Positions 5,479-37,466 of a DNA stretch of 43,143 bases are shown one piece after another. Position 1 is the first letter of the stretch. The number at the start of each line of letters is the position of its first letter. A program made the position numbers and the translations under genes. The DNA lies in NCBI GenBank assembly GCA_008633435.1, contig RKSL01000002.1:1-43143 (forward strand). Direction: 5' to 3'. The notes below the pieces were generated by a model. That model was not told the origin of the DNA, made no database searches, and was given only the letters and a program-made list of their open reading frames with translations. The DNA comes from Candidatus Desulfobulbus rimicarensis (GTDB lineage: Bacteria; Desulfobacterota; Desulfobulbia; Desulfobulbales; Desulfobulbaceae).

Positions 5479-6041
5479 TGAGAAACCCGCGTAATCTACT
5501 CTGGATGATTCCTCTGGGCATATTACTCACAGGTCCGCTGTGGCGTGGTTATGTCGCCGATTTTCTCAAACCCAGAGGCGGCTATGATGCTAAAGTGGCC
5601 GAGGCGTACAAGCGGCAGAGTCAGAATTTTATCATGGATAATATTTCGATTACCCTTTCCAGTAACGGACAGCTGGAGTGGCGCATCCGGGCACAACGCG
5701 CCTTTACCGGCAAGTCGGATCGGGAGATAGGGATGATTGATGTTGATGCCCGTTATACAAGCAAGGGAAAGGACCCGCTAGCGATTATCAGCGATAGGGG
5801 AACCTATCTTATGGATGATCGCCACCTGGTATTAATTGATCATGTTGTGGTAAAAAAACCGGCCAAGGGTGAGGAGCTGTTTACTGATCTGCTCCATTAT
5901 TACGATGCGACCAAGATGGTGATCTGTCCTGTGGATGTTGAAATCCAGGGGCCGCAGTTTCATCTCAGTGCCGGGAGAATGGATTATGACCTCTCAAGTG
6001 ATGCTTATGATTTTAACGAGCGTGTTATTGTCGAAATGTAA
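5478..6041 (+). CDS. lptC: LPS export periplasmic protein LptC
   Basis: LptC bridges the inner-membrane LptBFG exporter to periplasmic LptA. The 187-residue protein has one N-terminal membrane anchor (NLLWMIPLGILLTGPLW) followed by a beta-rich domain with the LptC-like pattern of repeated short strands, for example FIMDNISITLSSNGQLEWRI and DRGTYLMDDRHLVLIDHV. The ATG at 5478 shares a base with the kdsC stop, so translation is coupled. An in-frame start at 5445 would only add residues inside kdsC. The position after kdsA-kdsC is the common arrangement. LptA and LptB are not in this window before dapL, so the cluster is shorter than usual. Confidence 0.85.
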   Translation: MRNPRNLLWMIPLGILLTGPLWRGYVADFLKPRGGYDAKVAEAYKRQSQNFIMDNISITLSSNGQLEWRIRAQRAFTGKSDREIGMIDVDARYTSKGKDPLAIISDRGTYLMDDRHLVLIDHVVVKKPAKGEELFTDLLHYYDATKMVICPVDVEIQGPQFHLSAGRMDYDLSSDAYDFNERVIVEM

Positions 6042-6087
6042 CGGCTGAGAGTAGAAAGACAAATCAAACAGAGTGAGTATAGATACA

Positions 6088-7311
6088 ATGTTGCGAATTA
6101 ATGAGCATTACCTCAAATTACAGGCCTCCTACTTATTTTCTGATATTGCCAAACGGGTGGCGTCCTTTCAACAGGCCAATCCGGACAAAGATGTTATTAA
6201 ATTAGGTATTGGTGATGTAACCCGGGCGTTGCCCGAGGCATGTGTAGCTGCATTTCATCGGGCAGTTGACGAAATGGCAGCTGATGCCAGCTTTCGCGGT
6301 TACGGCCCTGAACAGGGCTACCCGTTTCTGCGGGAAGCTATTGCCATCCATGATTTTCAGGCCAGGGACGCAGAAATATCAGCTGATGAGATTTTTGTTT
6401 CAGACGGGGCAAAATGTGATACCGGCAATATTCAGGAATTATTTAGTGTGGAGGCAAAAATTGCCATCCCTGACCCGGTGTATCCGGTCTATCTTGATAC
6501 CAATGTCATGGCCGGGCGCACCGGTGATTTTGCTGATGGTCGCTACCAGGGGATTGTCTATCTGGATTCGGTGAAAGAGAATACTTATGTGCCGGCCCTG
6601 CCTGAGCAGCCGGTTGATCTTATCTATCTCTGTTTTCCCAACAATCCCACCGGGTCAACGGCTACCAGAGAACAGTTGCAGCAATGGGTGGATTATGCCC
6701 GTGAAAACAAGGCGCTTATTCTCTTTGATGCAGCCTATGAGGCCTTTATCCGTGACGAGTCCTTGCCCCATTCTATTTATGAAATTCCCGGAGCCAGAGA
6801 GGTGGCCATTGAATTCCGATCATTTTCCAAAAATGCAGGGTTCACCGGAACCAGGTGTGCGTATACAGTCGTCCCTAAAGAGTGCATGGCCTATGACGCA
6901 TCCGGAACTCCACAGCCAATTCATGCCCTGTGGAATCGTCGGCACTGTACAAAATTTAATGGTGTTTCATATCCGGTGCAACGGGCGGCTGAAGCGGTCT
7001 ATTCTGCCGATGGGCAGCAGCAGGTACAGGAACTTGTCGGCTATTATTTGAACAATGCTGATCGTATTGCCAGCGAAATAGGCAAGCTCGGCTACAGTTA
7101 TGCCGGGGCTGCCAATTCACCCTATATCTGGATCTGGGGCGATCGGGATTCCTGGGAGTTTTTTGATATGCTGCTCAATGAGGCTGGTGTTGTCTGTACA
7201 CCTGGTGCAGGATTTGGCAAATGCGGTCAAGGGTATATCCGGCTGTCAGCATTCAACTCCTCTGACAATGTGGAACGAGCCATGGTCAGGATTCGTGAGG
7301 CTCTCTCCTGA
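6088..7311 (+). CDS. dapL: LL-diaminopimelate aminotransferase
   Basis: A PLP enzyme converting tetrahydrodipicolinate directly to LL-diaminopimelate for lysine and peptidoglycan, bypassing the succinylase or acetylase branches. From the ATG at 6088 it is 407 residues, the usual DapL size. Family features include [15 protein letters not shown] at the N terminus, [15 protein letters not shown], and the PLP lysine in [15 protein letters not shown]-terminal residues YIRLSAFNS bind the substrate carboxylate in class I/II aminotransferases. An in-frame GTG at 6073 is possible, but GTGAG there looks more like the ribosome-binding site. It is convergent with the amidase gene. Confidence 0.95.
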
Positions 7312-27626: not shown

Positions 27627-29564
27627 ATGACAAAACACACAATAGAATTTCTCCCGGACAACATAACCGTTACTGTTGATAAGGGCGAGAACTTACTGAG
27701 CGCGGCAGCCGAGGCCGGGGTGTATATTCATGCCTATTGTGGCGGCGATGGCGTATGTGGCAAATGCAAGGTGGTGGTCGATGAGGGGGAGGTGCGTTCA
27801 TCCAAGAGTAATCTCAAACAGGACGACTGGGATAAGGGCTTCCGGCTGGCCTGTCTTTCCACGGTGGAATCTGATCTCAAGGTCACGATCCCCGAGATGA
27901 CCACCAAGAGTGGCAAGGCGCTTAAAAGAAAGCCCAAGACCACCCGCACAATTTCTGCCAAGGCTCTGGATACCCTGATTGGTACCTGGGAAGTAGATCC
28001 GCCTGTGAGTAAAATCTATCTTGAACTTGATCCTCCAACAATGGATGATAATATTTCGGACATGCAGCGGGTGATGCGCGGCATTAAACTGGTTTTGCCA
28101 GGAGATTCCAGAGAGCCTTCCTATGATCATCCCGAGCTGATCAAACATCTGCCCAGGGTGTTACGTGAATCAGACTGGAAAATCACACTGTTGCTCCTGC
28201 GTGGTAAGAACAAAGGCGAAACATTCAGGATTATTGATGTTGAAGCCGGTGATACCACAAAAAGGCTTTACGGCCTGGCTGTTGATATCGGCACCACAAC
28301 CTGTTCCGGTGTCCTGGTTGACCTGAATACCGGCAAGATCATCGCCGAAGCCTCCGGCTATAACGGTCAGATCAGTTTTGGCGAGGATGTCATCTCACGT
28401 ATTATTTATGCCGGGCGTCCCGGTGGCCTGAAGGCGTTGCAGGATAAAGTGGTTGAAACCATAAATACCATTATCGACGATATCTGCCGCAAGATGATTA
28501 TTTCGCCCTCAGATATCTCCTATATCATGGCTGCGGGCAACACGGTCATGTCCCATCTGTTACTGGGGCTTGATCCTAAGTATATCCGAGAGTCGCCCTA
28601 CGTGCCCAGTGTGAGCCAGTTCCCACTCACCAAGGCTGGCGGGCTTGGTATTCATGCCCATCCATCAATGCGTCTTTTTCTTTACCCCTGTATTGCTTCC
28701 TATGTTGGTGGTGATATTGTTGCCGGTGTCCATGCCTGCCAGATGGCAAAGTCTGAGGAGGTGAGCCTGTTCATTGATATTGGTACCAATGGTGAGATAG
28801 TGGTGGGCAATAAGGACTGGATGGTCTGTGCCGCCTGTTCTGCCGGGCCTGCCTTTGAAGGAGGTGGCATTCAATACGGAATGCGAGCCTCAAACGGTGC
28901 TATCGAGAATTTTCATATTCATCCTGAAACCTTTGATCCCATGATTGTCACCATCGGTCGAATCAAACCCTCCGGCATTTGTGGCTCAGGCCTTATCTCC
29001 ATAGTCTCTGAACTGCTTGAAGCCGGAGTCATTGACCAGCAGGGGAAATTCAGGCGTCATTTTGATACGCCAAGAATTCGTGACGGACGTGATGGCTGGG
29101 AGTATGTCCTTGCCTGGGCTCAGGACTCTCTTATTGGCGAGGATATTGTCATAACTGAGGTTGACCTTGATAATCTGATGCGAGCCAAGGGGGCGATGTA
29201 TGCTGGTTATCAGACCCTGCTTGAGTCAGTTGGCTTGGGGTTTGACGATCTGGATCGTGTTATCATGGCAGGAAACTTTGGCGCGTACATTGACCTGGAA
29301 CGGGCCATCTGCATTGGTTTGCTGCCCGATGTTGACCGTGAAAAGTTTTATTATCTGGGTAACGCCTCCATGCTTGGCTGCCAGATCAGTTTGTCCGATG
29401 TGGATCGGTTCCGTGAAAGGGTTGAGGCCAGACAGCTTATGACCAATATGGAACTTGCAGAAAATCCCGAATTCATGCAGCATTACATGGCTTCACTTTT
29501 TCTGCCGCACACCGATATGAGTCTGTTTCCCTCGGTGGCAAAAAAACTCGAAGACCTGGTGTGA
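27627..29564 (+). CDS. ASKHA-domain protein with N-terminal [2Fe-2S] ferredoxin (RACo/RamA-like reductive activator)
   Basis: Proteins of this layout reactivate corrinoid methyltransferases by ATP-driven reduction of the cobalt centre. The 645-residue protein starts with a plant-type ferredoxin domain, with cluster ligands Cys38, Cys44, Cys47 and Cys76 (YCGGDGVCGKC and RLACLS). A linker region (about 90-205) leads to the ASKHA ATPase: LYGLAVDIGTTTCSGVLVDL, VSLFIDIGTNGEIVVG and a C-terminal MAGNFGAYIDLERAICIGLL. The gene has GGAG before its start. No corrinoid protein or methyltransferase lies next to it, so its client is probably encoded elsewhere. Confidence 0.9.
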   Translation: MTKHTIEFLPDNITVTVDKGENLLSAAAEAGVYIHAYCGGDGVCGKCKVVVDEGEVRSSKSNLKQDDWDKGFRLACLSTVESDLKVTIPEMTTKSGKALKRKPKTTRTISAKALDTLIGTWEVDPPVSKIYLELDPPTMDDNISDMQRVMRGIKLVLPGDSREPSYDHPELIKHLPRVLRESDWKITLLLLRGKNKGETFRIIDVEAGDTTKRLYGLAVDIGTTTCSGVLVDLNTGKIIAEASGYNGQISFGEDVISRIIYAGRPGGLKALQDKVVETINTIIDDICRKMIISPSDISYIMAAGNTVMSHLLLGLDPKYIRESPYVPSVSQFPLTKAGGLGIHAHPSMRLFLYPCIASYVGGDIVAGVHACQMAKSEEVSLFIDIGTNGEIVVGNKDWMVCAACSAGPAFEGGGIQYGMRASNGAIENFHIHPETFDPMIVTIGRIKPSGICGSGLISIVSELLEAGVIDQQGKFRRHFDTPRIRDGRDGWEYVLAWAQDSLIGEDIVITEVDLDNLMRAKGAMYAGYQTLLESVGLGFDDLDRVIMAGNFGAYIDLERAICIGLLPDVDREKFYYLGNASMLGCQISLSDVDRFRERVEARQLMTNMELAENPEFMQHYMASLFLPHTDMSLFPSVAKKLEDLV

Positions 29565-29893: not shown

Positions 29894-29959
29894 GCCAGCC
29901 ACGCTATGCGGTACCTTTAATGGTTGAGTTTCAGGAGTGAACTTTTCATTTTCAGCGCA

Positions 29960-30415
29960 ATGGATATAGCGGTACAGGCAAAAATTGATGATGAATTGCA
30001 GAAGATGGCAGCTCGTGAGGGCGTTTTTCTCCGGGTAACCGGCAACTGCATGAGTCCGATCCTCAATGATCAGGATCGTGTTCTGGTGCGCTGGCAGCCT
30101 GACTACAGAACAGGGGATATCCTTGTTGTTCGCCTGGGGAATGGCCATCTTGTCTGTCATCGACTTGTGGGCAAATATTTCCGTAATCGTCAAAGACATT
30201 TTCTGACAAAACCCGACAATGGTAGATGCCCTGACGCAGCAGTTGTCAGCAGGATGATTTTAGGGAAGATCTTCAACCAGGATGGGGAGTTGCCAATTGA
30301 TGCTCCATCTGTTTTCTTTCGTTTGCAACTATCTTTTTCTTTTGTTTACCATCTTAGCCGCAGGCTATTGGCAAAATTCTGCTCCCAAAAAGAGCTGAAA
30401 AAATCATCGAATTGA
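29960..30415 (+). CDS. S24/S26-family peptidase (signal-peptidase-like, Ser/His type)
   Basis: A 151-residue protein with a signal-peptidase core. The nucleophile Ser32 lies in VTGNCMSPIL, box C is TGDILVV, box D is VCHRLVG with His67 where bacterial type I peptidases have Lys, and a box-E-like TKPDNGRCPD follows. Ser/His is the arrangement of archaeal and ER signal peptidases. There is no clear membrane anchor, which suggests a cytoplasmic or loosely bound processing enzyme. Such short S24/S26 proteins often occur in peptide-maturation loci with PqqD and HPr-kinase-like genes, as here. The ATG at 29960 lacks a good ribosome-binding site, and a TTG at 29924 is the alternative. Confidence 0.75.
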   Translation: MDIAVQAKIDDELQKMAAREGVFLRVTGNCMSPILNDQDRVLVRWQPDYRTGDILVVRLGNGHLVCHRLVGKYFRNRQRHFLTKPDNGRCPDAAVVSRMILGKIFNQDGELPIDAPSVFFRLQLSFSFVYHLSRRLLAKFCSQKELKKSSN

Positions 30416-30802
30416 TTATCTCGCATTGTGTGTTATTACCCCTGTTTCGAACGGAGTGTTTGCGTGTGAAAGTAACCGGATACAGATTGGTGTAATAGCG
30501 GCTACAGCTCCCTTGGTGAACGGTTACGGTTTCGCAGTGCTCAACCAGACCTACAGTATCTGTCGACCAAGGTGGTTGCGTATGAATAATCAAGCGGGTG
30601 GTATGTGTTTGTTTTTTTCGAGAAAGCATTTTTGGAATACTGCATTTATGTGCTATCATAAACTCACGCAATAGTGCTCGACGACAACGTTAAGAGGCGT
30701 TTTGGCCTGGGGAAAGAAGAGTAGTATCTACCAGTCGCCAGGGAGTGCTCAAATTGGCAGACAATAACCCATTTTAGGGTTGTATAAAGGAAAAGAAATA
30801 CC
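30416..30802 (+). other. 387-bp gap before the C25 peptidase gene, rich in inverted repeats
   Basis: No gene with supporting signals. GTAACCG (30472-30478) can pair with CGGTTAC (30521-30527), and CAACCA (30542-30547) with TGGTTG (30573-30578). Just before the gene, TTGGCAGACAATA (30754-30766) and an AACCC-ATTTTA-GGGTT hairpin (30766-30781) resemble the third block and terminal hairpin of elements A and B. The main stem and loop of those elements are not clearly present here. AAGGA at 30787 may serve as ribosome-binding site. Confidence 0.4.
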
Positions 30803-33800
30803 ATGGAAAAAATACTGCAGGATCTCTTAAGCGTTTTGTCGTGGAACAAGAGTTCAATGGGGCTGTTCGCCCTGATCGGGTTCCGTGTTTTCTTTGTTAG
30901 TACACTCGGGTATGCGGATTATCTTGTCGATGACACGTGTAATCCGACATTCACTACCATAGTTGGTGTAGCTGGCACTGTAGGATTGAATCAGGGTGAT
31001 GACGATGCTGATAACGTGAATATACCGTTTAGTGTACCTTTTTATGATAACAGGTACACCGTTGCACGTGTTCAATCCAATGGTGCAGTCTATTTTAACC
31101 CTGCCAGTGGAACAATTCCTTACAACAATCAGAGTATACCTTATAGCAGTGTAACAGCGGCAGCATATCCTTTTTGGGACGATTTGAATCCCGCATCTGC
31201 TGGGGATGTATATTGGACGGTACGGGGGACAGCCCCTAATAGAGAGTTTGTTGTAGAATGGAATAATGTGCCGCATTATAGTAATACCGGAAGAGTGACT
31301 TTTCAAATGATCATTCATGAAAGTTCTGGTGATATTTATTTTTTCTACCCTGATGTTGATTTTGGTACTACAAGTTATAATAATGGCGCAAGTGCAACGA
31401 TTGGTTTGCAGAGCGCTTCAAACAGCGCACAACAATACTCGTATAATGCCGCTACTGTAAGTAGTGGCAGTGCAATATGTTATACTTTTCCTAAGGATTT
31501 TGGCGATGCGCCAGCGAGTTATGGCGATCCGTCACACGGAAACCAAGGGGTGAAGAGTCTTTTTTTAGGAGCTGGTGGGGATGATCCTGATATAGAAGTT
31601 GCTTCGCAGAATTCAGCGGATGGCTTGGGGGATAATACCTCTGGCTCAAATGATGAAAATGGTGTGACGTTTCGTTCACCGGCGAATTCTGGGAAGAGTA
31701 TTTTTGCCGATGTCGTTGTTAACAATGCGGCCGGCGATTCAGTTACTGTTTGTGGCTGGCTGGATGTCCCCTCTGGAGGGGGTGTCGATGGGAACTTTGA
31801 CAGCTCGGATGGTCAATGCCAGACAACAAGTGCAACTAATCCAACATTAACGTTTCAGTGGAGTGGTTTGCCTGTTGATCAACAATACACGACATATGCC
31901 AGATTTAGAGTTAGTACAGAACCCCTGGATACCTCAACATCAGATACATTTGTTATTCAAGGAGAGGTCGAGGATTACCGGTTAATTTTTGATTTTCAGC
32001 CCACCCTCGCGATTATAGATAATTTTCGAGTAGAGTTATTGTCTGCTTCTGAGGATTTTTCTGATAATCCCGATACTCATGCTCAGTTTTTTCAGTGTAC
32101 CCCTGAAACAGCCAATGTGCCTGCTGGCAATTGTCGGCTTGCCGTAGTTCGCTGGGAGACCGTGCAGGAACATGGCACAGTCGGGTTTTATATTGAACGG
32201 CAGCGTGATGATGGGCAGTGGCAGCGACTTAATGGCAAGGCGATGTTGCCGGGGCTGGTTAATTCTCCCCTTGGTGGCGAATACATGTTTCTCGATTCTG
32301 ACGTTATTCCTGATAAAACCTTTACATATCGTCTGGTTGAAGAAGATATATGGAATGTGCCTCATGTCTACGGCCCATGGACTGTTACCCTTAAACCCGA
32401 AACTGCTTTGCCCCATGCTGCGTCTATGAAGCGACTGGCGGTGCAGTCCAAAAAACCTGTTGCCAGCCCAACGCGGTTTACAGCGTGGCGTTCTCTTGCA
32501 GGCGGTTTTTCCGGTCGAGCCAGAATGGTTGCGCCAGCCCCTGAAAAAGTTGCAGCAGCTTCATTTGTGTCCCCGTTGCCTTTTAAAAAAGTCTTTGGTG
32601 CTCCAACTCATCGGGTAAGCCGGGTGCGGTTAAAAACCCGTGATACAGCAATGTATCAGGTAACTCTGGATGATCTCGCCGCAGTGACGGGGATTAATCC
32701 CAGCCGTATATCGCGAAAACTGGAGCAAAACCGCTGGTCTTTTTCCACTGGAGATGGCGGCGCAGCCTATTATTTTGATCGGGAAAACCACAACATTGTT
32801 TTTGCTGCAGATAGCTACAGGAGCATTGAAACCCTTGATAACGTCTACCGTCTGGGGAAATTCCGGCACAGACAGGGCTGGAAGATGAGCCGTGTGGCTG
32901 GTGCGGGGCCCTCATCCGGCCACCCCGGACAGTTCAGGGATACGCAGTATTTTGCCGAGGAAAATTATCTGCTCACCTGGATACACAGTGATGAAAATAG
33001 TGATTACGGGTACTGGGCAATGGTCTACGCAGCACCAGCAGGAGAGGTGGATATCTCTGTCAGCCTTCCTGATCCTGCCACATCCTCAAACCGTCCCGGT
33101 CAACTGAAGATCGTTTTGCGTGGAGCAAGTGATAAAGTCGAAGGGAATGACCATCAAGCCAGTGTCTCACTCAACGGTACCCCGCTTGATGGCTCGGTGC
33201 AGTGGAATGGTAGTGAACAGGCTGTTTTGACGGTTCCTTTTGCCCAATCATTGCTTGGCGGCACCGAAAACGGCGAATTGGCTCCAATGACGTTGACCGT
33301 ACAAGGTGATGCGCAAAATGGTGCGCAGTACAGCCTCTTTTATATTGAATCGGTTGCAATCAGTTATGATCGAAAGATGTATGCCCTGGATAATCAGCTT
33401 AGACTGCAGGAAACAGAACCTGGAACGGTTGTCACGGTGAGCGGCTTTACCAATGATGGAATTCGGGTTATTGAAGCACCAAATACAGCTCAGGCAGCCT
33501 GGCGGGAAGATCTCACTGTTACCGAGTCTGCTGACGGATATCAGGTCAGCTTTAGAGCAAATGGTGGCGTGTATCAGCTCTCTGCAAGTCCATTGCATCT
33601 CGCGCCAGAGCCGGATTATCCTTCCCGCCTGTTATCGAGAAGAAATAGAGCAGATTATCTGATTATTGCCCCTCGCAGCTTACAGCAAAGTGCAGAAGCA
33701 CTTTCAACCCTGCGTTCATCCAGCTATACAACCCAAATTATCTGGCTTCAGGATATTTATGATGTGTTTTCCGCAGGACGGGTTGATTCATCATCAATTG

Positions 33801-34741
33801 AGAAGTTTTTGCGCTATGTGCATCTCTACTGGAGTCAGGTGCCGGAATATGTGGTTCTGCTGGGGCGGGGCACCCTTGACCATCCTGACCGTCAGGGCTT
33901 AGGAGAAAGTTTGATTCCGCTACGGATGGCTGCAACCCCCTGGGGGCTTATTGGCAGTGACAACCGTTACGCCGATGTTGACGGCGATTATGTGCCGGAT
34001 TTCAGTATTGGCCGGATAAGTGTTTCCACTGATACCGATGGGCTTGCCTTTGTCGAAAAACTACGCAGTTACGAGTCTGCATCGTCTGCCGGCAGCTGGA
34101 GCAGTCACGGTGTAGTTGTGGCCGACGACCCTGATCCTGAGGCGGGTGATTTTCATGCCAACAGTGATGAAGTGGCGTCATTGTTATCTTCATTTGGTTT
34201 TTCTGTGGAAAAGCTGTATCATCCTGAACAGACGGTTCATGGTCTTCTGGTGGATCATTGGTCAGCAGGGCTGTATGGTTTGGTCAACTATGATGGCCAT
34301 GGCGGACGAACCCAGCTGGGCAAGAGTTCGGAAAATTTTTTCAAGTCAGCTGATGTTGCCGGGCTAAACAACGGCACAAACCTTCCCGTGTTTGCGGCTT
34401 TTACCTGCGCGGCCGGTGATTCGTCGTATCCGGGAGTGCTCAGTCTTGGTGATACCCTGACCCTGGACTCCACAGGTGGCTCCATTGCCTCTGTCGTGCC
34501 CACCGGGCTTTCCAGTGATGCCCCTGCACACCGGATTAACCGTTTTTTTGTGGATCAGCTTGTTGATAAAGAACAAAGTGTTGGCAGAGCCTTGCGTGCA
34601 GCATTGCAGGATGCGGCCGAAACAACTATGGTACCCTTTATGTTTGATGTCTATCATGTGGCTGGAGATCCGGCTGTGGAAATGAAGAGGCCGGTAGGCT
34701 ACAGAATTAGCGATGGAGCCGTACTGGAGGCAGGACAATGA
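30803..34741 (+). CDS. Large secreted C25-family (gingipain-like) cysteine peptidase with GEVED domain
   Basis: A 1312-residue exported protein. A hydrophobic signal (MGLFALIGFRVFFVSTLGYA, from an internal ATG at 30857) may be the true N terminus. Next is a beta-rich domain (about residues 45-230, with SVTAAAYPFWDDLNP and AGDVYWTVRG), then a GEVED domain from DFGDAPASYGDP (about 232) to VQGEVEDYRL (about 390). A middle beta-sandwich region leads to the caspase-like peptidase domain (about 940-1300). The His/Cys pair is His1166 in NYDGHGG and Cys1202 in AFTCAAGD. No PEP-CTERM or type IX sorting tail is visible. It overlaps the small peptide gene by ATGA, so the two are coupled. Confidence 0.88.
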   Translation: MEKILQDLLSVLSWNKSSMGLFALIGFRVFFVSTLGYADYLVDDTCNPTFTTIVGVAGTVGLNQGDDDADNVNIPFSVPFYDNRYTVARVQSNGAVYFNPASGTIPYNNQSIPYSSVTAAAYPFWDDLNPASAGDVYWTVRGTAPNREFVVEWNNVPHYSNTGRVTFQMIIHESSGDIYFFYPDVDFGTTSYNNGASATIGLQSASNSAQQYSYNAATVSSGSAICYTFPKDFGDAPASYGDPSHGNQGVKSLFLGAGGDDPDIEVASQNSADGLGDNTSGSNDENGVTFRSPANSGKSIFADVVVNNAAGDSVTVCGWLDVPSGGGVDGNFDSSDGQCQTTSATNPTLTFQWSGLPVDQQYTTYARFRVSTEPLDTSTSDTFVIQGEVEDYRLIFDFQPTLAIIDNFRVELLSASEDFSDNPDTHAQFFQCTPETANVPAGNCRLAVVRWETVQEHGTVGFYIERQRDDGQWQRLNGKAMLPGLVNSPLGGEYMFLDSDVIPDKTFTYRLVEEDIWNVPHVYGPWTVTLKPETALPHAASMKRLAVQSKKPVASPTRFTAWRSLAGGFSGRARMVAPAPEKVAAASFVSPLPFKKVFGAPTHRVSRVRLKTRDTAMYQVTLDDLAAVTGINPSRISRKLEQNRWSFSTGDGGAAYYFDRENHNIVFAADSYRSIETLDNVYRLGKFRHRQGWKMSRVAGAGPSSGHPGQFRDTQYFAEENYLLTWIHSDENSDYGYWAMVYAAPAGEVDISVSLPDPATSSNRPGQLKIVLRGASDKVEGNDHQASVSLNGTPLDGSVQWNGSEQAVLTVPFAQSLLGGTENGELAPMTLTVQGDAQNGAQYSLFYIESVAISYDRKMYALDNQLRLQETEPGTVVTVSGFTNDGIRVIEAPNTAQAAWREDLTVTESADGYQVSFRANGGVYQLSASPLHLAPEPDYPSRLLSRRNRADYLIIAPRSLQQSAEALSTLRSSSYTTQIIWLQDIYDVFSAGRVDSSSIEKFLRYVHLYWSQVPEYVVLLGRGTLDHPDRQGLGESLIPLRMAATPWGLIGSDNRYADVDGDYVPDFSIGRISVSTDTDGLAFVEKLRSYESASSAGSWSSHGVVVADDPDPEAGDFHANSDEVASLLSSFGFSVEKLYHPEQTVHGLLVDHWSAGLYGLVNYDGHGGRTQLGKSSENFFKSADVAGLNNGTNLPVFAAFTCAAGDSSYPGVLSLGDTLTLDSTGGSIASVVPTGLSSDAPAHRINRFFVDQLVDKEQSVGRALRAALQDAAETTMVPFMFDVYHVAGDPAVEMKRPVGYRISDGAVLEAGQ

Positions 34742-34935
34742 GTAAACAAAAAAGGGAAAAACATTATGACCCTCAGGGAGACAACACAGGGCGAAGCCGG
34801 AAAAAACATCCCGTCTGGCATAAACCTGCAATACTCAGCGTTGAACCTCTGGAGGCAGCTGCCGCCATCTGTGAACCGGCCAACGCCCCATTTGGTAAGG
34901 ATTTTCCAGGCACCTGTGGAACACTTGGTTCATAA
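34738..34935 (+). CDS. Candidate RiPP precursor peptide (65 residues)
   Basis: The peptide starts inside the last codons of the C25 gene (ATGA overlap). The first 28 residues are polar and basic (KKHPVWHKP). Then comes KPAILSVEPLEAAAAIC, similar in style to RiPP leaders that end in a hydrophobic, Leu-Glu/Ala-rich stretch before the core. The tail after Cys45 is EPANAPFGKDFPGTCGTLGS, rich in Gly, Pro and Thr with a second Cys at position 60. No signal peptide or membrane segment is present. HPr-kinase-like, PqqD-like and radical SAM genes follow, and that context supports a precursor role. I recognise no named family, and the modification cannot be predicted. Confidence 0.65.
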   Translation: MSKQKREKHYDPQGDNTGRSRKKHPVWHKPAILSVEPLEAAAAICEPANAPFGKDFPGTCGTLGS

Positions 34936-34968
34936 CGCCGGGAAATTGTTCCTGAACAGACAGAATAC

Positions 34969-35003
34969 GCAGCAACCGGTGCTGAGTGCTCCCCGGTTGC
35001 TGC
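34969..35003 (+). repeat. Perfect 11-bp inverted repeat after the precursor gene
   Basis: GCAGCAACCGG (34969-34979) and CCGGTTGCTGC (34993-35003) form an 11-bp GC-rich stem with a 13-base loop, 33 bp after the precursor stop. No T-run follows, so it is not a classical terminator. It could protect the 3' end of the precursor mRNA or reduce read-through. The GTG at 34986, the first possible start of the next gene, lies in the loop. Confidence 0.6.
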
Positions 35004-35918
35004 TGTCAGCACAACTTCACTGAGACTTCCCCTGTGCTCTCAACAGCTCCCAGACCGTGGGGATCACATACTGCCTTTCTCCGATTTGCAGGACAGCAGT
35101 ATTGTTTTTCCGGATTAACCAGATATCAGCAACAGCTACTTGCCGAGCGTTTTCCCTCTTCTCCTCCGGTGCATTCTTCTGCGACACTGTTTGCAACCGA
35201 AATGCAGTATGCCGGGATGACCCTTAAAGATCCGAACCATTATGCCGTCAATGATTTCTACACCCCCAAAAGCAGGTACCGGTCAGATGGTCTTGATGTG
35301 GACGGATATGGGTTTGCCGCAACCATTGCATTGTCGCCTGAGGTGCGTGGGCTGCTCGTTACCCCCGAGGAAAATAAAGCCGTTGATCCTTTTATCTTTG
35401 AGAATTATCTCAGGGTACTGGCCGCATACGTCACTCTGCAACAGGGTGGGCTGTTTCTCCATAGTGCGGGGATCGTAATCGATCATAAGGCGTATCTCTT
35501 TCTTGGCCGTTCCGGGGCTGGTAAAAGTACCTTGTCCCGTCTGGCTCTTGAAGATGGATATACACTGTTAAGTGATGATGCAAATATCATTTTACCCAAC
35601 AGAGAGGCGGGGTTTCAGGCTGGTCCGGTTCCGTTTGCCGGTGAACTCGGACAGGTGGCAAACCATGATGTTGAGAGCTGTCCGGTGGCCGGGTTGTTCT
35701 GGCTGGATCAGAGTCAGACTGTTGCTCTTTCTTCTCTTAATCCCTCTGTGCAGTTGGCAAAAACAATAGCCTGCTGTCCGGTTGTCAATGTTGATCCGTT
35801 TCGGCTGAATCAGGTACTTGTAAATATTGATAACCTTATTCAGGATGTGCCTCTTCAGGAACTTCACTTGCGAAGAAATCAGCCTTTTTCAGAAATTCGT
35901 CAATTGATTGAGAAATGA
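34986..35918 (+). CDS. HPr kinase-like protein of a peptide-maturation locus
   Basis: A protein of up to 310 residues with the P-loop of HPr kinase/phosphorylase-like proteins: LFLGRSGAGKSTLSRLAL (Walker A about residues 174-181), preceded by GLFLHSAGIVID and followed by LLSDDANIIL, the Asp-rich second motif. In lasso-peptide and related clusters, such proteins phosphorylate or process the precursor. The N-terminal region (to about residue 100) is not conserved in any way I recognise. The start is uncertain: GTG at 34986 sits in a hairpin loop, and GTG at 35034 is the next option. The PqqD-like gene begins 1 bp after its stop. Confidence 0.72.
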   Translation: MLPGCCCQHNFTETSPVLSTAPRPWGSHTAFLRFAGQQYCFSGLTRYQQQLLAERFPSSPPVHSSATLFATEMQYAGMTLKDPNHYAVNDFYTPKSRYRSDGLDVDGYGFAATIALSPEVRGLLVTPEENKAVDPFIFENYLRVLAAYVTLQQGGLFLHSAGIVIDHKAYLFLGRSGAGKSTLSRLALEDGYTLLSDDANIILPNREAGFQAGPVPFAGELGQVANHDVESCPVAGLFWLDQSQTVALSSLNPSVQLAKTIACCPVVNVDPFRLNQVLVNIDNLIQDVPLQELHLRRNQPFSEIRQLIEK

Positions 35919-35919
35919 T

Positions 35920-36189
35920 ATGAATGCTTCTACTGATACCTTGAGTCTGCATCCGGATATTTTGTTTAGAGCAGTTGATGATGAAGGCGTGGTGGTTGAT
36001 CAACGGCAGCCAGAAGTCATGGTCATAAACAAACAGGCCTTGGAGATACTTGAACTTATTCGTGAGACCAGATCAAAAAAAGCCGTACTGGCAGCGCTGA
36101 CAAGACAATACCAGGAGGATCAGACAACCATTACCAGAGATCTTGATGAATTTATTGAGACATTGAAGGAACGTGAAATGCTTGTGTAA
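35920..36189 (+). CDS. PqqD-like peptide-binding protein
   Basis: An 89-residue winged-helix protein of the PqqD/RRE type, which binds leader peptides and presents them to modifying enzymes. The pattern HPDILFRAVDDEGVVVDQ followed by VMVINKQALEILELI and a C-terminal ITRDLDEFIETLKERE is typical of PqqD. The ATG at 35920 follows the HPr-kinase-like stop by 1 bp, so the pair is coupled. It should recognise the leader half of the 65-residue peptide. Confidence 0.82.
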   Translation: MNASTDTLSLHPDILFRAVDDEGVVVDQRQPEVMVINKQALEILELIRETRSKKAVLAALTRQYQEDQTTITRDLDEFIETLKEREMLV

Positions 36190-36268
36190 AAAGGTAACTC
36201 CTCACAGGATTTATAACTGAGGGTTTGCACAGGCTAAAATTTTGTAATTGGTCTCAGGTGCGTCAGAT

Positions 36269-36327
36269 TCGGAGTCTGCACTTACCTGTTCAGTCATACC
36301 TTTTTCGCAGGTAAACGCAGACTCCGA
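36269..36327 (+). repeat. Long imperfect inverted repeat between pqqD-like and radical SAM genes
   Basis: The left arm is 36269-36288 and the right arm 36308-36327: 11 bp (TCGGAGTCTGC with GCAGACTCCGA), two mismatches, then 7 bp (TTACCTG with CAGGTAA), with a 19-base loop containing TTTTT. A further CAGGTAAGACC-like copy of the inner arm lies about 30 bp downstream (36344-36354), and GGTCT (36250-36254) can pair with AGACC there. It could be a repeat element, a processing site or an attenuator in the maturation transcript. Confidence 0.65.
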
Positions 36328-36391
36328 TAGCCCCTCTATGCGGACAGGTAAGACCGGACAAAGATGGCTTGCCTGTGATCAATTACGTAAA

Positions 36392-36478
36392 ATGAATGCT
36401 TTCCTGCGGGTTGCATTGTTGTTGTCAGTGGCAGGGGCGATGCTGGGAATGTCTACAAGGGTGGTGCGGTATGTATAA
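36392..36478 (+). CDS. Possible 28-residue hydrophobic peptide overlapping the radical SAM start
   Basis: The short frame MNAFLRVALLLSVAGAMLGM... ends RVVRYV and stops at 36476-36478, overlapping the radical SAM gene by 8 bp. It looks like a single membrane helix or signal peptide with a basic tail. There is no good ribosome-binding site before it. It may be a small membrane protein, a translational coupling leader, or chance. Confidence 0.25.
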   Translation: MNAFLRVALLLSVAGAMLGMSTRVVRYV

Positions 36479-37466
36479 AAAAATACTCAATACAATACGT
36501 CACCGAAACCTGCTCCATGGTGCCATGATTGAGCTGACGTATGGTTGTAATCTGGATTGCAGGTTCTGTTACAATGCAAAAAACGCCAAGGGCACGCCCC
36601 TGCACATTGACCAGTACCTTTCCCTGTTGCAGGATTTGCGTCAACTACAGGTGCTCTTTCTCTCCTTTACCGGCGGCGAACCGCTGCTCCATCCTTTTTT
36701 CTTTGAAATAGCAGGTGCTGCCAGACAGCTGGGGTTTGTGGTCCGGGTCAAGTCAAACGGGCTGCTTATTCACGGGGAAATCGCAAAACGCCTCAAAGAA
36801 GAAGTGAACCCGCTTGAAGTTGAACTGAGCCTGCATGGAGCTGTGGCAGCCACCCATGATCGGCAGACACGATCTGCCGGAAGTTTTTCCCGGCTCATTG
36901 CTCATGTGGCCGAGATGAAGCAACTCGACTTGCGCCCATCTTTTGTTTCCACCTTGACCTCCTGGAATGAAAAAGAGACAGAGGCAATGTTTGCTTTGGC
37001 TGATTCCCTGGGGATTGACCTGCGTTTTCAGGGGCCGGTGGGGCCGAAGGGGTTGATGGATGGAGGTGACTGGCAAAACATTACCCTGCAGCCATCTTCT
37101 GAGGGATGGCAGGAGCTGGCTCGTGTTGTTGCGTCCCGAAAAACCTGTTCAGATGCTGCACCCTCGTTATCAACATGCGGCAGTGATGAACCCCCTGTAC
37201 AGAGTGCTAAAGTATGGTGCGGAACAGGTAGCCAGGAAGTGTTGGTTGACCCCTTTGGCACAGTCTTTCCCTGTCTCCATCTGCGCTGGCCTGCCGGAAA
37301 TCTGCATCAGCAGTCTTTTGCTGGAATCTGGCAACAGGGGAATGGGCGTGTGTTTATTAAAGCGCGAAAACTCTCCCGTGACGTCGCCCGCACCATGGAC
37401 GCAGGTGTTGTAACGCAGCTTGGTGCCCCCCTGTTCTGTCCAGGGATTGATCAGCAGATTTCCTGA
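36471..37466 (+). CDS. Radical SAM/SPASM peptide maturase
   Basis: A 331-residue radical SAM enzyme. The cluster ligands are Cys26, Cys30 and Cys33 in LTYGCNLDCRFCYNAK, followed by the SAM-binding LSFTGGEPLLHP. A shortened SPASM/twitch domain at the C terminus contains WCGTGSQEVLVDPFGTVFPC, then PAGNLHQQSFAGIW and a last Cys in LFCPGID, for auxiliary Fe-S clusters. Such enzymes install carbon-carbon, thioether or similar crosslinks in peptides. The 65-residue peptide with two Cys is the likely substrate, with the PqqD-like protein as carrier. The ATG at 36471 is chosen because it directly precedes the conserved region. It is convergent with recD. Confidence 0.88.
   Translation: MYKKILNTIRHRNLLHGAMIELTYGCNLDCRFCYNAKNAKGTPLHIDQYLSLLQDLRQLQVLFLSFTGGEPLLHPFFFEIAGAARQLGFVVRVKSNGLLIHGEIAKRLKEEVNPLEVELSLHGAVAATHDRQTRSAGSFSRLIAHVAEMKQLDLRPSFVSTLTSWNEKETEAMFALADSLGIDLRFQGPVGPKGLMDGGDWQNITLQPSSEGWQELARVVASRKTCSDAAPSLSTCGSDEPPVQSAKVWCGTGSQEVLVDPFGTVFPCLHLRWPAGNLHQQSFAGIWQQGNGRVFIKARKLSRDVARTMDAGVVTQLGAPLFCPGIDQQIS

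Follow-up and report, generated by a model that had tools for sequence, protein, structure and literature searches.

What role does a large secreted C25 protease play beside the genes for a small, apparently modified peptide? We know of no study of how large secreted C25 proteases are regulated outside Bacteroidota. The locus described here places such a protease gene next to genes for a two-Cys peptide, an HprK-like protein, a PqqD-type protein, a radical SAM/SPASM protein and an S26-type peptidase. The locus is very probably of a radical SAM RiPP type to which C25 is linked in part of its range. The window, the whole stretch of DNA analyzed, is a complete contig (G000:C218; 43,143 bp), one of 295 that make up a 2.9-Mb genome, and the view ends at the contig ends.

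Gene content of the locus

ORF calls and profile scans confirm the six genes claimed in a preliminary description made from the sequence alone, all on the + strand. A convergent recD follows the radical SAM/SPASM gene. The features are:

29960..30415, + strand: S26/S24-type signal-peptidase-like protein, Cys/His variant, probable leader peptidase (PF00717, 37.3 bits, cut-off 23.3; motif survey, alignment)
30803..34741, + strand: secreted multidomain C25 (gingipain/PorU-like) cysteine peptidase, 1312 aa (PF01364, 189.9 bits, cut-off 23; alignment to 1cvr and 6za2; dyad check; lineage tree)
34738..34935, + strand: precursor peptide, 65 aa, with leader ...WHKPAILSVEPLEAAAA, two-Cys core ICEPANAPFGKDFPGTCGTLGS and Ser as last residue (ATGA overlap, Shine-Dalgarno sequence, homologs in G004, G035 and G057, survey of C-terminal Ser)
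34986..35918, + strand: HprK/PEPCK-fold kinase-like protein, predicted C-terminal Ser kinase (alignment, AlphaFold2 model, Foldseek, residues; start at GTG 34986 or a later GTG)
35920..36189, + strand: discrete PqqD-type leader-binding protein (RRE), 89 aa (PF05402, 45.8 bits, cut-off 23.4; start most likely ATG 35920)
36270..36326, no strand: imperfect inverted repeat CGGAGTCTGC ... GCAGACTCCG (sequence, Rfam scan; at most a possible member of the system)
36471..37466, + strand: radical SAM/SPASM protein, 331 aa (PF04055, 62.7 bits; PF13186, 29.4 bits; alignment; start most likely ATG 36471, not 36396)

The S26/S24-like ORF spans 29924-30415, and the ATG at 29960 fits the alignment. This gene lies 387 bp upstream of the C25 gene and may stand outside the operon; in the related loci L040 and L041 it lies on the opposite strand. 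The inverted repeat sits in a 281-bp gap between the PqqD and radical SAM genes; relatives have a shorter gap there or none. The repeat has no second copy in the window and no Rfam match, and an Rfam scan of the whole window returned 0 matches. The window had been described as free of transporters, and neither it nor most relatives showed a peptide exporter; only in G039 does an ABC transporter directly follow C25 and S26. Upstream of the locus lies a gene for an AcsV/RACo-type corrinoid activation protein (27627-29564), which scores 686 bits with the AcsV model of NCBIfam, below the cut-off of 800 bits.

Precursor peptide

The peptide ATG overlaps the C25 stop codon as ATGA, the 4-bp overlap reported before, and is preceded by a Shine-Dalgarno GGAGG 7 nt upstream. 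A genome of the same genus (G004) encodes a peptide that matches the C-terminal 39 residues at 92% identity, and two genomes of another genus (G035 and G057) encode peptides of about 50% identity; each of these homologs adjoins HprK, PqqD, radical SAM and C25 genes. Conserved homologs beside the same genes, together with the Shine-Dalgarno sequence, argue that the 65-aa ORF is genuine and not a product of chance.

As expected of a radical SAM/SPASM RiPP locus, the short homologous precursor combines a conserved leader (KPxILSVEPLEAAAA in the window) with a variable core. Across 15 cable-type precursors, identity is 63% in the leaders versus 30% in the cores, and 14 of the 15 cores hold exactly two Cys. 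What the hypervariable cores keep is mainly the two Cys and the final Ser. Two tandem precursor copies are present in several cable-bacterium loci.

Last residues were counted in 35 precursors that were collected by leader similarity or HMM regardless of last residue; a first list, filtered on Ser, was left out. Ser ends 32 of these precursors, Thr two and Ala one (L046), counts that come from related loci and hence are not independent. The base rate in 176 longer ORFs of the loci is 6% for Ser and 3% for Thr, and a chance origin of the final Ser was rejected on this comparison, for which the binomial P, given the relatedness of the sequences, serves as a rough guide.

Predicted maturation proteins

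The radical SAM/SPASM protein joins the radical SAM motif CxxxCxxC (residues 26-33; Cys 26, 30 and 33) to a SPASM domain with a reduced Cys set (conserved C250, C268 and C323).

The window S26 protein had been called a Ser/His peptidase. Its motifs are GNCMSP ... VCHRLV, and both the motif survey and the alignment put Cys at the nucleophile position, in place of the Ser of GxSMxP. This replacement is new here. Loci L040-L042 also have Cys there (GCCMSP, GNCMHP), and most others have GxSMxP. The protein shares the GxxMxP and HR motifs with signal peptidase I/S26 of the archaeal or SipW type, and differs in the Cys of the window's subgroup and in that no N-terminal membrane anchor is apparent in the window protein. 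Nearly every core locus has an S26 match and only some have C25; S26 is more likely than C25 to remove the leader. A separate observation concerns L212 (G174:C16), where at 5506-6095 an S26 gene overlaps a gene for a Ser-ending peptide with two Cys, 'YEKPRIILEEKIEGRAGICAPAPPGKVVVGLCSMLNS'. A C25 gene lies some 5 kb from this pair, and the stretch covered contains neither a PqqD nor a radical SAM gene.

The HprK-like protein carries H150, K171, D188 and D189 (numbering from base 35013), and each of the 20 sequences in the alignment has an acidic pair where the window protein has D-D. A profile aligns its P-loop and the following acidic pair with HPr kinase, and it reaches none of the Pfam HprK cut-offs. 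Its AlphaFold2 model is of medium confidence (pLDDT 72.5), best in the C-terminal half, and Foldseek against the PDB matched the model to PEPCK and HprK/P (probability 1.00, E 7e-6 to 1e-4). Because PEPCK has this fold too, kinase activity does not follow from the fold by itself. In lasso peptide pathways, the kinases PadeK and ThcoK add a phosphate to the precursor's C-terminal Ser and require a His-Lys-Asp-Asp set (PMC9266682), and the window protein has this set. Given the Ser-ending precursors, the fold, these residues and the PadeK/ThcoK precedent, the likeliest role of the HprK-like protein is phosphorylation of the precursor's last Ser, an assignment by analogy that we consider fairly probable. 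The occurrence of Ser-ending, otherwise hypervariable precursors beside an HprK-like protein with the lasso-kinase residues is new here, and no link between lasso-type C-terminal Ser kinases and radical SAM peptides was found in the literature searched.

Related loci and distribution

The HprK-like protein was used to search 96 related genomes, and the neighborhoods of the matches were inspected. A profile search with a narrower HprK alignment gave six loci, all in Desulfobulbaceae. The full set (C25, two-Cys peptide, PqqD, radical SAM/SPASM, HprK-like and S26) occurs in six genera of three Desulfobacterota families; a search for the C25-peptide-PqqD-HprK combination in several genera had been proposed as a check, and it is present in all six. 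C25 is in cis in 18 loci of types A and B from six genera, and the set is kept despite rearrangement into two gene orders.

Type B (the window, L039, L040 and L041) has the order C25 - peptide - HprK - PqqD - rSAM and the precursor pattern 'P..LS.E.LEAAAA.C......GK..P..C....LGS'. Type A (L043-L048, L050, L051, L053 and L068-L070) has the order C25 - PqqD - rSAM - peptide(s) - HprK - S26 and the pattern 'YEKPxLxxVxLFADQVLxxC...C...S'. The C25 gene of L048 runs off its contig and probably continues on L065. Type A hosts include the cable bacteria Ca. Electrothrix aarhusensis, Ca. Electrothrix gigas and Ca. Electronema aureum. All eight genomes sampled from the Electrothrix-containing genus carry the locus, as do three of five from the Electronema-containing genus and two of five from the window's own genus. 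Sampling of 395 genomes of the phylum added the full set with C25 in two further families (L104 in G406, L105 in G354). The bacterium of the window is a relative of the cable bacteria; an rpoB tree that rests on limited window sequence and includes one row of poor quality (g5) places the window's genus outside the Electrothrix-Electronema clade; no 16S gene was found in the window's genome.

Ten loci from ten Desulfobacterota genera form type C (L054, L059, L120, L121, L143-L147 and L168). Here C25 is joined to a different HprK-like gene, with S26, PqqD and radical SAM genes where the contig allows. Eight or nine of these loci showed a peptide. The type C precursors look unrelated to those of types A and B, have the pattern 'YExPxxxTYxxEEIxxxIGPAQ..' ('...GPAQxC') and do not end in Ser or Thr. 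Two type C precursors that were scanned matched no NCBIfam model. This second C25 lineage, linked to PqqD/radical SAM/HprK/S26 sets with 'GPAQ' peptides, is new here.

The core of PqqD, radical SAM, HprK and S26 genes also occurs without a strong C25 in about ten genomes, mostly with Ser-ending peptides. Nine have the core and no C25 at E <= 1e-20 (G165, G131, G139, G367, G359, G233, G190, G114 and G358), and G076 is a further case. The last residue of the G139 peptides is Thr, and for G190 and G114 the search identified no peptide. A PF14907 nucleotidyltransferase gene lies beside the C25-less core in several cases. In other Desulfobacterota families, L107-L117 encode Ser/Thr-ending precursors of the pattern 'W/YxKPxLxVL..EEAVLxxCK...C...GS' with no C25; their partners are PqqD, up to three radical SAM proteins, S26 and usually HprK, with PF14907 in some.

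C25 protease

The C25 domain is C-terminal in the window protein (residues 952-1294) and is preceded by weak NIDO and GEVED domains. In alignment with gingipain R (1cvr) and PorU (6za2), its catalytic His and Cys match those of gingipain R. The His is present in all 49 aligned C25 domains and the Cys in 48, the remaining one being truncated at that position. Window-type C25s share the domain and the aligned His and Cys with gingipain R and PorU; they differ in lying outside Bacteroidota, in their fusion to NIDO/GEVED domains or SdrD_B/SpaA repeats, and in their linkage to a modified-peptide locus. In L040 (12185-15019) and L041 (8484-10871) a separate GEVED/F5_8 gene lies directly upstream of a shorter C25, an arrangement that is a natural split of the window's fusion.

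Cable-type C25 proteins have about 1,500 to 4,000 residues. The one that was scanned (L051) has SdrD_B, SpaA and CarboxypepD_reg repeats followed by a C-terminal C25 domain, and the cable-type operon adds choice-of-anchor J and CarboxypepD_reg proteins. These surface-type repeats and operon proteins point to a system at the cell surface.

In a maximum-likelihood tree, a supported branch separates the C25s of A/B loci from those of type C loci. Eight C25s in the two linked lineages have no adjacent maturation genes, and each of them is a paralog in a genome with a linked locus (G000, G013, G406 twice, G167, G290, G368 and G349). The A/B lineage, with its dyad intact and its locus-free members all of this paralogous kind, is new here. 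It seems that a C25 of a linked lineage needs the locus; for most other C25 lineages no maturation genes were seen nearby. The window's genome itself holds a second C25 of the same lineage (L058, G000:C21:2815-3834), on a 6.3-kb contig with no maturation genes near it.

Comparison with known systems

The clusters of the lasso kinases PadeK, ThcoK and SyanK share with the locus an HprK-like protein with His-Lys-Asp-Asp, a Ser-ending precursor and a discrete PqqD-type protein, and they share the PF14907 nucleotidyltransferase with several C25-less loci. They differ from it in that the locus has a radical SAM/SPASM protein, an S26-type peptidase and a C25 partner. The asparagine-synthetase-like cyclase and the transglutaminase-like B2 protease are absent among the locus proteins and the scanned flanking proteins.

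Sactipeptide, ranthipeptide, streptide and GeoRSP systems likewise have a PqqD-type RRE, a SPASM enzyme and a short Cys-containing precursor with a conserved leader. The locus differs from such radical SAM/SPASM RiPPs in its added HprK-like kinase and S26 peptidase, and it falls below every curated NCBIfam cut-off. SynChlorMet (ScmA-F) also combines HprK-like, PqqD and radical SAM proteins, and ScmC is the best NCBIfam match of the window HprK-like protein; the cut-offs are missed for ScmC (48 of 125 bits), ScmF (83 of 400) and ScmE (58 of 400). The HPr-rel-A system shares the HprK-like and PqqD pairing, again below cut-off (TIGR04352, HprK_rel_A, 25.7 of 200 bits; TIGR04353, PqqD_rel_X, 29.5 of 35). 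Unlike the locus, neither SynChlorMet nor HPr-rel-A names a C25.

The preliminary description knew of no RiPP class with this set, and none was found in the open-access literature searched. Searches of that literature for C25, PqqD, HprK and radical SAM together gave no description of such a set, and an earlier one may exist elsewhere.

Proposed mechanism and alternatives

On balance, we favor a mechanism in which the locus makes a modified ribosomal peptide and pairs it with the secreted C25 protease. The 65-aa precursor would be translated coupled to the C25 gene, and PqqD would hold its conserved leader. The radical SAM/SPASM protein would modify the two-Cys core, most likely with at least one thioether or other cross-links. 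The HprK-like protein would phosphorylate the hydroxyl of the C-terminal Ser, and the S26-type peptidase, Cys/His here, would remove the leader. The product would then exit the cell and act with or on the secreted C25 as a dedicated ligand, regulator or substrate. We infer each chemical step, the order of steps, the export and the C25-peptide interaction from the observed genes, conservation, residues, kinase fold and linkage. Against the mechanism stand the lack of a peptide exporter noted above, the Ala-ending precursor of L046, and type C, which has an HprK-like gene yet precursors that do not end in Ser or Thr. The position of the window S26 gene, perhaps outside the operon, and the medium confidence of the HprK-like model also weigh against it. 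Nor do the hypervariable cores point to any element that would bind C25.

A single maturation system, as first described, is supported by these data; the C-terminal Ser with its kinase logic and the Cys variant of S26 had been missed. The earlier view of C25 as a dedicated component holds for the 18 loci with C25 in cis, all from one C25 lineage, but the C25-less cores make it optional. Homologous loci without C25 had been named as evidence against that view, and their presence in about ten genomes counts in part against it.

The main alternative is that C25 is a processing enzyme that cuts the exported modified peptide at its leader or a spacer, with S26 serving another protein. C25 enzymes are proteases, the C25 and peptide genes are tightly coupled in the window, and the C25 lineage is dedicated. 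Nevertheless, the C25-less genomes have this core together with precursors of a like kind, which indicates that C25 is dispensable for maturation. S26 is near-universal, and the extra C25 paralogs in trans exceed the need of one peptidase job. The role of leader-cutter, one of two that the preliminary description had offered, is therefore disfavored by the C25-less cores and the near-universal S26, and we regard C25 processing as unlikely. Since maturation does without C25 and the linked C25s seem to need the locus, C25 is probably a partner or target of the product rather than its leader peptidase.

Quite unlikely is an antimicrobial or signaling peptide, with C25 as a protease for immunity or self-protection or as a surface receptor. 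The fixed leader, hypervariable core and tandem precursors of several cable loci resemble bacteriocin clusters; in most loci no dedicated transporter or immunity gene was seen. Still less probable is a C25 that works as a transpeptidase (sortase) like PorU, attaching the peptide in its phosphorylated, cross-linked form to a surface protein or a glycan. PorU models are the best NCBIfam matches of the window C25 (158 and 104 bits), and the cable-type C25 is fused to SdrD_B/SpaA-like surface repeats. These scores are below cut-off (158 of 420 bits for the PorU sortase model NF033707), and PorU acts on C-terminal domains rather than on short peptides. Least probable of all is a pathway for a peptide-derived redox cofactor with the protease gene as an unrelated neighbor: PqqD with radical SAM/SPASM is the logic of PQQ and mycofactocin, and the radical SAM protein scores 98 bits to the mycofactocin model, but the equivalog cut-offs are missed (PqqD 31 of 46 bits, PqqE 65 of 381, MftC 98 of 265), hypervariable cores are hardly compatible with a cofactor, and the C25 link is lineage-wide.

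Significance

Cable bacteria conduct electricity. The idea that the system builds their conductive fibers or a Ni cofactor was rejected as unsupported, because the locus occurs in non-cable genera and other orders, its core is hypervariable, and the search did not find it in two of five genomes of the Electronema-containing genus. Cable-bacterium papers searched for such terms mention no radical SAM or C25 protein. The cell envelope of Electrothrix and Electronema is under active study, and the locus occurs in both genera.

The locus joins two questions, the regulation of C25 proteases and the pairing of Ser kinases with radical SAM peptides. Its small peptide appears to be chemically modified and is probably phosphorylated. 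A directly testable prediction is a phosphate on the last Ser, a cross-link in the core and an action on C25. Tentatively, the locus may represent a new RiPP class with a radical-SAM-modified two-Cys core and a phosphorylated C-terminal Ser, whose mature peptide would be a dedicated ligand or regulator of a secreted C25 lineage that includes the SdrD_B/SpaA-C25 giants of cable bacteria; the 'GPAQ' family may serve the second C25 lineage likewise.
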